Shown piece after piece: positions 38,600 through 41,861 of a DNA stretch of 64,000 nucleotides. The translations under genes and the position numbers were made by a program. Each line of letters opens with the position of its first letter. Position 1 is the stretch's first letter. The notes beneath the pieces were generated by a model. That model was given only the letters and a program-made list of their open reading frames with translations, made no database searches and was not told the origin of the DNA. Source of the DNA: Thermanaerovibrio velox DSM 12556 (GTDB taxonomy: Bacteria > Synergistota > Synergistia > Synergistales > Synergistaceae); the NCBI RefSeq assembly GCF_000237825.1, contig NZ_CM001377.1:682001-746000 (forward strand). The letters run 5' to 3'.

Positions 38600-39634
38600 T
38601 CAGAGGATCATTGCACTCCCCGCCCCTTCTTTAAACCTCCCGACCAGTTCTGACTTGGTAAATCCGATTTCTCTGAGGGTTTTGATGAGCTCGCCCTCCC
38701 TTAGGGGGTCCACCGCCAGCAGGAGGCCTCCGGAGGTCTGAGGGTCGTATAGAAGGTCCTGGACCTCCAGTTTAACGTGTTCTCCCATTTTTACCCGTGA
38801 TGAAAAATGTTCCCTGTTTGAGTATGCGCCGGCGGGAACCATGCCCATGGCGGCCATTTCAAGGGCCCCCTCCATGGAAGGTATCTTGGAGGATAGGATC
38901 TCCACGTCCATGTCTGAAGAGCTCACCATATCCAGGCAGTGCCCTAGGAACCCGAACCCCGTAACGTCCGTGGCAGCCCTGATAGCGGTGAGGATATCCT
39001 CCGGCAGCCTTCTGGGCAGGTCGTTGAGCATGGCCATCCACGTGACCGCCCCCGTCAGCAGTTCTTCCCCCGCCATGCCGGCCTTGAACGCGGTTGTCAG
39101 TATCCCGCTGCCCAGCGGCTTGGTCAGCACAAGCCCGTCACCCGGCTTTGCCCCGGTTACCCGCCAGAGCCTATCCTCATGAACCTCCCCGTAAACTGAA
39201 AGGCCGTATTTGGGTTCATCATCCTGAACGCTGTGTCCTCCCGCAAGGCACGCCCCCGCCTCCTGGACCTTCCTGGCCCCCCCTAAGAGTATTCCCTTGA
39301 GTACCTCCAATGGCTCGCAGGAGGTGGGGAACGCCACCACGTTCAACGCCACCTTGGGCAAGCCGCCCATGGCAAAAACATCGCTTAAGGCGTTTGCCGC
39401 TGCGATCTCCCCAAAGAGCACCGGGTCGTCCACGATGGGAGTTATAAAGTCCAACGTAAGGATGGCAATCCTCCCATCCCCTAAGCTCCATAGGGCCGCA
39501 TCCTCTCCGTTGTCCCAACCGGATAGAAGCCTCGGATCCCTAAGGGAGGGGATCTCCATAAGCATTTGATCCAGCTCCGCTGGACCTATCTTGGCGGCTC
39601 ACCCGCTGGTCTTGGCCCGTTCCGTAAGCCTCAT
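38600..39634 (-). CDS. selD: Selenophosphate synthetase, itself a selenoprotein
   Basis: Makes selenophosphate for selenocysteine synthesis from selenide and ATP. The full frame begins with ATG at 39634 and runs through an in-frame UGA (39601-39599) as codon 12: TERAKTSG-U-AAKIGPAELDQML. This is precisely where SelD has its catalytic Cys or Sec. From the first ATG the protein is 344 residues, the normal size; starting after the UGA it would lack the active site. A bSECIS-like hairpin follows. The ribosome site GGGGAGGTG overlaps the birA stop. The remaining sequence is typical (LTLDFITPIVDDP, NALSDVFAMGG, GGHSVQDDEPKYGL). Confidence 0.93.
39569..39601 (-). promoter_or_regulatory. bSECIS-like hairpin and UGA codon in selD
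   Basis: Starting 13 bases after the UGA, GTCCAGC (minus 39585-39579) pairs with GCTGGAT (minus 39575-39569), one G-U, with apical loop GGA. Size, distance from UGA (about 20 bases to the loop) and a G at the loop start fit bacterial SECIS elements recognised by SelB. Confidence 0.75.
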
Positions 39635-39639
39635 GATGT

Positions 39640-40644
39640 TCACCTCCCCTCCGCAGGCCTTATGTGCTTGATGTCACCGGCGGAGAACGCCGCTACATCA
39701 CCGCCCTCCAGGCGGATTAACAGGGATCCGTCCTGGTCTAAGCCCTCCGCGGTCCCTTCGATGATATTATCCCCCCAGGTGCCCCTTATGCGCATGCCTA
39801 TGGTGCAGCATCTGGAAGCATATGTTTCCATAAAATACTTGGGGGTCATGCGAAGCGTGCCAAGGTAAAAATCAAGCCTCTTTAAAAAATGTGATAAAAG
39901 GTGGTGACGGCTCGGCACCTTGCCCCCTTCTTGAGCTACCGACGTGGCTTCCGTGAGGGGGTCATTTAAGATTGGGGTTACCTTGAGGTTGACCCCAAAC
40001 CCAGATATCACGTGATGGATCTGGTCCACCTCAACGGCCCCTTCGCTCAGCATCCCGCAGATCTTGCGCCCCCTCACCAGTATGTCGTTGGGCCACTTGA
40101 TCTCACATCCTATCCCGCAAAGCTCTGCCAGTGCGTCCCCCATGGCCATCGCGCAGGCCAGGTTTACCGCCTGAACCATTCGGGGAAGCAGCTTGGGTCT
40201 GAGCAGTACGGACCCATATAACCCCCCCGGTGGGGATTCCCAGCGCCTGCTTTGCCTTCCCCTGCCAGACGTCTGTTCGTCCGCCACCACAACGGCCCCC
40301 TCGGGACGCCCTTGAGCTGCCATCTCCTTGAGCGGGGCTTGGGTGGACCCGATGGAGGCGTAGTGAAATATGGGATGTCCCAGCTTGGAATCTATGAGAA
40401 GCATCTCGGCCCATGACGGGGAGAAACGGTCATCTTCCGGAGGCCCCTCCAGTACGTAACCCTTTTGAGGTACCGAGGATATCCTTATCCCCTCATCTTT
40501 GAGGTTGCCTATTATCTTTGATATTCCCTGCCTTGTTATTTTAAGCTCCTTTACCAGGGCCGAGCTCGGGGTGAGCTGCCCCGGATTTTGAGCCAGTATC
40601 CAAAGAACCCTTACCCGATTGTCAACCTCACAGCGTGCATCCAT
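39640..40644 (-). CDS. birA: Biotin-protein ligase / biotin operon repressor
   Basis: Attaches biotin to carboxylase carriers and, with its N-terminal winged helix, can repress biotin genes. 334 residues from MDARCEVDN at 40644: HTH about residues 10-65 (ELKITRQGISKIIGNLKDEG), catalytic GRGRQSRRWESPPGGLY (the biotinyl-AMP loop), KWPNDILV, and a C-terminal SH3-like domain. Upstream in-frame starts are rejected because they add an unconserved tail. selD follows 5 bases later. Divergent from prfB. Confidence 0.9.
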   Translation of the reverse strand: MDARCEVDNRVRVLWILAQNPGQLTPSSALVKELKITRQGISKIIGNLKDEGIRISSVPQKGYVLEGPPEDDRFSPSWAEMLLIDSKLGHPIFHYASIGSTQAPLKEMAAQGRPEGAVVVADEQTSGRGRQSRRWESPPGGLYGSVLLRPKLLPRMVQAVNLACAMAMGDALAELCGIGCEIKWPNDILVRGRKICGMLSEGAVEVDQIHHVISGFGVNLKVTPILNDPLTEATSVAQEGGKVPSRHHLLSHFLKRLDFYLGTLRMTPKYFMETYASRCCTIGMRIRGTWGDNIIEGTAEGLDQDGSLLIRLEGGDVAAFSAGDIKHIRPAEGR

Positions 40645-40686
40645 GTGCAAACCTAATCCCTTCCTCCGCGGCTCTTGTCCCGGTGG

Positions 40687-40695
40687 TGATATAAT
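40687..40695 (+). promoter_or_regulatory. Extended -10 promoter of prfB
   Basis: TGATATAAT: TG-N-TATAAT with TATAAT at 40690-40695, no good -35. A start near 40702 is about 34 bases before the prfB ATG. Confidence 0.6.
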
Positions 40696-40735
40696 CCTTT
40701 CTTGTTCAATATAGCAATTCTTAGGAGGGGTGTAC

Positions 40736-41861
40736 ATGGTCGTTCTGCCGGTAAGCACGGTCATGGGCAACTTGCGTTCGCGCATGCGCGAGCTGCGTGA
40801 TAGCCTTTGACCTGGATGGGATTGATGTCAAGATAGCGGATCTTATGAAACAGGCCTCGGAGGAGGGTTTCTGGGAAAGGCCAGACTCCAAGGATCTGGC
40901 CAGGGAACTCGCTCAGCTCCAGCAGAGGAGAGAATCATTTTCCGCCTTGGAGAGGGAGATCCAGGACCTTGAGGTCCTGGTGGAAATGCTCCAGGAGGGG
41001 GAGGACGAGGAGCTGTCCCAGGAGTTCTACCAGAGGGCGGAGGTCTTGGAGGAGAGGCTGGAGAGAAGCCAGGTTTTGACCCTGCTGGACGAGGAGTACG
41101 ACCAATCCGATGCCATATTGTCGATACATGCGGGAGCCGGCGGGTTGGACTCCCAGGACTGGGCGGAGATGCTCTACCGTATGTATGTAAGGTGGGCGGA
41201 ACGAAACGGGTTCAAGGTCAAGCTTTTGGATGAGCTTCCAGACCAGGAGGCAGGGATAAAGAGCGTTACGATCCAGGTGAGCGGGGAATATGCCTACGGA
41301 TATCTTAAGGGAGAGAATGGGGTGCACCGACTGGTAAGGATCTCCCCCTTTGATGCTGCCAAGAGACGGCATACCAGCTTTGCCTCGGTGGAGGTCATGC
41401 CGGTCCTGCCTGACGACGTGGAGATAGAGATAAGGCCGGAAGACCTCAAGATGGATACCTTCCGCTCCAGTGGCGCCGGGGGACAGTACGTTAACATGAC
41501 GGACTCCGCGGTTAGGATAACCCACATACCCACCGGCATAGTGGTCAGCTGTCAGATCGAAAGGTCCCAGCACATGAACAGGGCCACCGCGATGCAGATG
41601 TTGAGGGCCAAGCTTTTTGAAAGGCAGCTTAGGGAAAGGCAGGAGCAGATCGAGGCCCTTCAGGGGGAAAAACGTGCAATTTCATGGGGTAGCCAGATAA
41701 GGTCTTACACGCTGCAGCCATTTCAGCTGGTGAAGGATCACCGTAGCGGCTGTGAGATAGGCAACGTCCAGGCGGTGCTGGATGGCCAGCTGGATGAACT
41801 TATCATGGCTTATCTTAGGTTTTACAAGACCGGACGGCTTTGGAGGGATTCGGAAGAGTGA
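40736..41861 (+). CDS. prfB: Peptide chain release factor 2, with programmed +1 frameshift
   Basis: Releases peptides at UGA and UAA. The first frame begins ATG at 40736 (GGAGGGG 5 bases upstream) and ends after 24 codons at an in-frame UGA (40808-40810) in CTT-TGA-C, the classic RF2 autoregulatory site; a +1 shift continues from GAC at 40809 to 41861, giving 374 residues. Both RF2 hallmarks are present: SPF (RISPFDAA) and GGQ ([11 protein letters not shown]). High RF2 favours termination, low RF2 favours the shift. The upstream stimulatory Shine-Dalgarno is not obvious. The last bases overlap the next gene as GTGA. Confidence 0.97.
40805..40811 (+). promoter_or_regulatory. Programmed +1 frameshift site in prfB
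   Basis: CTT TGA C: Leu codon CTT then the UGA stop followed by C, identical to the E. coli slip site. The expected AGGGGG just upstream is missing; the nearby GTGAT could only pair weakly with the 16S tail. Confidence 0.9.

Follow-up and report, generated by a model that had tools for sequence, protein, structure and literature searches.

A predicted selenocysteine-containing selenophosphate synthetase encoded through an in-frame UGA codon in Thermanaerovibrio velox

Introduction

Selenophosphate synthetase (SelD) with selenocysteine (Sec) in a UxxK motif (COG0709) is the second most widespread selenoprotein family of bacteria (PMC9312934, PMC13188914), and the evolution of SelD has been the subject of a dedicated study (PMC4561486). 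According to the main text of a selenoproteome survey, Synergistetes are a selenoprotein-rich phylum in which Sec is used in 13 of 14 genomes (PMC5029168); T. velox has the phylum and the Sec trait in common with the organisms of that survey, whose main text, supplementary tables apart, does not name the SelD of this species. In bacterial Sec-SelD proteins, Sec occupies the catalytic position ahead of xxK, the UGA codon is followed by a bSECIS hairpin, and selA, selB, and selC are present in the genome.

The T. velox gene studied here lies in a window of 64,000 nucleotides (the whole stretch of DNA that was analysed) and resembles these systems in each of the above respects; nothing essential differs, and the sequence and spacing of its hairpin are lineage-specific. 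Considering that Sec-SelD is widespread and that Synergistetes are rich in selenoproteins, it is an ordinary instance of a known arrangement. Escherichia coli SelD (3u0o) shares the fold family and the active-site alignment, but has Cys17 where T. velox SelD has Sec12 and needs no bSECIS. Based on what can be read from the sequences themselves, namely the frame with its UGA, the hairpin behind it, the genes of the Sec machinery, and the conservation across relatives, we estimate a probability of about 0.98 that T. velox selD encodes a Sec-containing selenophosphate synthetase in which the UGA at codon 12 is read as Sec. The features of the locus are listed in Table 1.

Table 1. Positions of selD, its decoding signals, and its neighbours within the window
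Feature	Position	Strand	Basis
selD, selenide water dikinase (selenophosphate synthetase), 344 aa, predicted Sec at residue 12	39634..38600	-	Translation, TIGR00476, and match to E. coli SelD
In-frame UGA, codon 12, active-site UxxK	39601-39599	-	On E. coli Cys17 in alignment; TGA in all clade orthologues
Shine-Dalgarno GGAGGTGA	39647-39640	-	Direct reading; 5 nt before ATG 39634-39632
Putative bSECIS hairpin, 8-bp stem GGUCCAGC/GCUGGAUC, GGA loop	39586-39568 (loop 39578-39576)	-	Folding, codon shuffles, and published criteria
birA-like biotin protein ligase	39640..40785	-	ORF as listed; identified from sequence
prfB (release factor 2)	40736-41861	+	ATG 40736, CTTTGAC at 40805-40811, then +1 frame to 41861

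The selD reading frame and active site

The selD frame is opened by an ATG on the minus strand and, when read through, gives MRLTERAKTSG-U-AAKIGPAELD..., with a single internal TGA and a terminal TGA stop at 38602-38600. A preliminary description had proposed that upstream extension restores a 344-residue SelD through one UGA at codon 12, and both its coordinates and its sequence proved right. Against the TIGR00476 selD equivalog profile (cut-off 125), the read-through product reaches 345 bits over residues 2-310, and E. coli SelD matches it with E=2.2e-64. In the ungapped N-terminal alignment of the two proteins, U12 falls on Cys17 and K15 on Lys20, which we take to be the catalytic residues of the E. 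coli enzyme, and the catalytic Cys/Sec plus xxK motif near the N terminus is thus present as U12-A-A-K15.

By contrast, a plain ORF finder calls the only start at ATG 39565, yielding 321 aa without the active site. The loss of the active site that had been predicted for automatic annotation therefore holds for this type of finder, the sole comparison made, and the corrected gene model implies that functional SelD would consist of the plain ORF plus 23 residues, with the catalytic Sec among them. If the downstream ATG were the genuine start, the product would be a SelD-like protein devoid of the N-terminal redox residue, which we consider highly improbable: the Shine-Dalgarno sequence GGAGGTGA, already pointed out as the ribosome site of the extended gene and overlapping the upstream biotin ligase gene at its stop codon, stands at ATG 39634; codons 2-11 are kept at the protein level (RLTExxxTSG); and the piece that would be omitted holds the UxxK motif common to SelD. 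In a comparison of SelD orthologues, differences in codons -10 to -1 before the UGA amount to 0.31, 0.12, and 0.61 at codon positions 1, 2, and 3, respectively, which shows that the codons preceding the UGA are constrained as protein.

The hairpin downstream of the UGA codon

A hairpin, GGUCCAGC-GGA-GCUGGAUC, begins 12 nt past the UGA and its loop begins 20 nt past it. The hairpin and its GGA loop had been noticed before; the stem, previously given as 7 bases from nt 13, has to be revised to 8 bp from nt 12. The published bSECIS model specifies an upper stem of 4-16 bp with a loop of 3-9 nt, a G within the first two positions of the loop, a UGA-to-loop distance of 16-37 nt, and a minimum free energy (MFE) of -7.5 kcal/mol or lower (PMC13188914). 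The selD hairpin has 8 bp and a 3-nt loop, this loop is GGA, the distance from UGA to loop is 20 nt, and a 30-nt stretch folds with an MFE of -12.3 kcal/mol (z -3.3). When longer flanks were included, the hairpin persisted and the z-score of the whole stretch was only -0.7 to -1.0. Such long-flank scores are uninformative, and a shuffle that keeps the protein and resamples codons by the gene's own usage was therefore used in their place. Only 1% of these synonymous shuffles were equally stable (p = 0.01). The same analysis gave p <= 0.05 in 75 of 97 Sec genes versus one of five Cys genes, counts that are not independent as the genes are related. Weighing against the Sec reading, half of the orthologues leave the outermost pair of the T. 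velox stem unpaired, and the stem of one of them (L036) is 5 bp only. We infer that the selD hairpins are the functional SelB sites.

Scanning the window for TGA-interrupted frames with bSECIS-like hairpins returned six candidates out of 125; selD was the sole convincing one, and the other five were judged on inspection to have arisen by chance. On the plus strand from 47625, a TGA precedes a GC-rich hairpin of 10 bp, TTCAGGGGGAGCCCGGCTCCCCCTGAA, that resembles an intrinsic terminator more than a bSECIS.

Conservation of the UGA codon among relatives

Among 53 genomes of the family, 26 contain SelD with exactly one internal TGA (27 loci), and six contain a Cys form. TGA at the codon 12 site is kept in every SelD of the clade of T. 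velox, and in a wider set of SelD sequences (mostly from Synergistota and Clostridia) the Sec position is also TGA with few Cys exceptions. Cys homologues (L020-L024 and L026) have TGC at this site; they are divergent, come from one group of relatives (g11-g13), and are mostly found in genomes without SelA. Two Sec-SelD genes (L018 and G018:C140:2974-3900) occur together in one genome, G018, and L018 clusters with Clostridia SelD on the tree, which suggests that this copy may have been acquired by horizontal transfer.

TGA is one base away from TGC and TGT, and the internal codon could in principle be a misread Cys codon or stem from a nonsense mutation that arose recently in a Cys-SelD, i.e., a sequencing error or a pseudogene. 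A misread of TGC/TGT, which the preliminary description had named as a possible refutation, is very unlikely, given that TGA stands at this site in 27 SelD loci of the same family. The codon was independently sequenced as TGA in both congeners (L027 and L029) and in all SelD loci of the main Synergistota clade, the hairpin is conserved, and coding-like constraint is observed on either side of the TGA, all of which render an error or pseudogene extremely unlikely.

Sec machinery and the proposed decoding of selD

Family-based searches of the T. velox genome (1,880,838 bases) detected selA at C1:1059120-1060223 (-), an adjoining full-length selB (661 aa), and a tRNA-Sec with anticodon tca (UCA) at 826313-826404 (81.9 bits), so that the three components whose presence had been predicted from selD (SelA, SelB, and tRNA-Sec) were all found. 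Within the family sample, full SelA occurs in 26/26 Sec-SelD genomes versus 1/6 Cys-SelD genomes (hand-calculated hypergeometric probability, about 3e-5). Genome-wide reassignment of UGA (e.g., to Trp or Gly) would account for an in-frame TGA taken alone, but has a negligible probability here given that the stop of selD itself is TGA, that TGA is the commonest stop in the window (closing 22 of 40 long non-overlapping frames), that the window encodes RF2, the release factor for UGA, and that the genome has selA, selB, and tRNA-Sec.

Glycine reductase selenoprotein genes were also identified. Both grdA and grdB (L128:922-2919, genome C1) lie about 19-20 kb before the start of the window and have an in-frame TGA at the Sec position (...ECFV-U-TAAGAMD in grdA and ...TST-U-GTCTRCG in grdB); the hairpin after the TGA is strong in grdB and weaker in grdA. 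A search for formate dehydrogenase gave just a weak match under the family cut-off.

With codon 12 of selD read as Sec, the established biology of Sec insertion, SelD catalysis, and feedback would predict the following course. Ribosomes would begin at ATG 39634, and SelB with Sec-tRNA-Sec would bind the hairpin downstream of the UGA, such that Sec is inserted and termination avoided. Sec12 and Lys15 (Cys17 and Lys20 in E. coli) would then form the catalytic site that converts selenide and ATP into selenophosphate, from which SelA would make Sec-tRNA-Sec. Because SelA needs selenophosphate for this step, the synthesis of SelD would depend on its own product, and ribosomes should halt at codon 12 when selenium is scarce. 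Selenium activation in T. velox may thus be tied to the product of SelD itself.

Hairpin position and residues adjacent to the active site

We compared the position of the hairpin across the main Synergistota clade (51 SelD genes). The loop lies at +20 nt in 15 of them, including all three from Thermanaerovibrio, and at +17 in the remaining 36; counted with the latter is L062, in which neither register with a 3-nt loop forms well and the best candidate is a hairpin whose loop, of 5 nt, is at +16. The two registers are one codon apart and overlie one coding stretch, K-I-x-P-x-(E/D)-L, and the shift is matched by residues 17 and 20: GPAE and SPAE go with +20, and GPAD, GPGD, GPED, and APAE with +17. 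The loop is GGA in the +20 register and usually GGC in the +17 register. Among register-17 genes, nt 14 and nt 24 past the UGA are always paired, as G-C (13), C-G (6), or G-U (5); this pair links codon 17, which is GGT (Gly) or GCT (Ala), with codon 20, which is GAC/GAT (Asp) or GAG (Glu). The C-G change is confined to one clade and may be a single event. One compensatory change, from U-A to G-C, was observed in register 20 (L065). Compensatory changes in the stem favour the reading of the UGA as Sec. Register 20 requires four changes on the tree. In Lachnospiraceae SelD, the hairpin is located at about +33.

One reading of these patterns, whose chances we regard as evenly balanced, is that the bSECIS of Synergistota SelD has slid between lineages by a step of exactly one codon, and that the register together with one base pair dictates the residues found at positions 17 and 20: the pairs would be Gly-Glu or Ser-Glu under register 20, and Gly-Asp or Ala-Glu under register 17. 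If true, an RNA recoding signal would shape the protein sequence beside the active site of SelD. The Synergistota selD genes represent a natural series of a coding-region hairpin shifted by one codon, which could be useful for testing the spacing tolerance of SelB.

Genomic context of selD

The birA-like gene and selD share a strand, with birA 5 nt upstream, and the two are probably co-transcribed; the true start of birA likely lies inside the listed ORF. In 22 loci birA adjoins selD. The prfB gene is divergent from birA and selD and located 1.2 kb upstream of selD. It contains the classical programmed +1 frameshift site CTTTGAC, and ORF finders misplace its start at 40797. About 21 Synergistota loci have prfB near selD, with CTTTGA in all; at one locus (L032) prfB is closer to selD and birA was not found, and in other Synergistota prfB is absent within 3 kb of selD. 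RF2 terminates translation at Sec UGAs upon failed insertion (PMC4513850), which makes the adjacency of prfB and selD suggestive. However, this adjacency is conserved in just part of the phylum and may reflect shared ancestry of gene order. Two distinct UGA recoding events, the Sec UGA predicted in selD and the frameshift in prfB, occur about 1.2 kb apart in this region.
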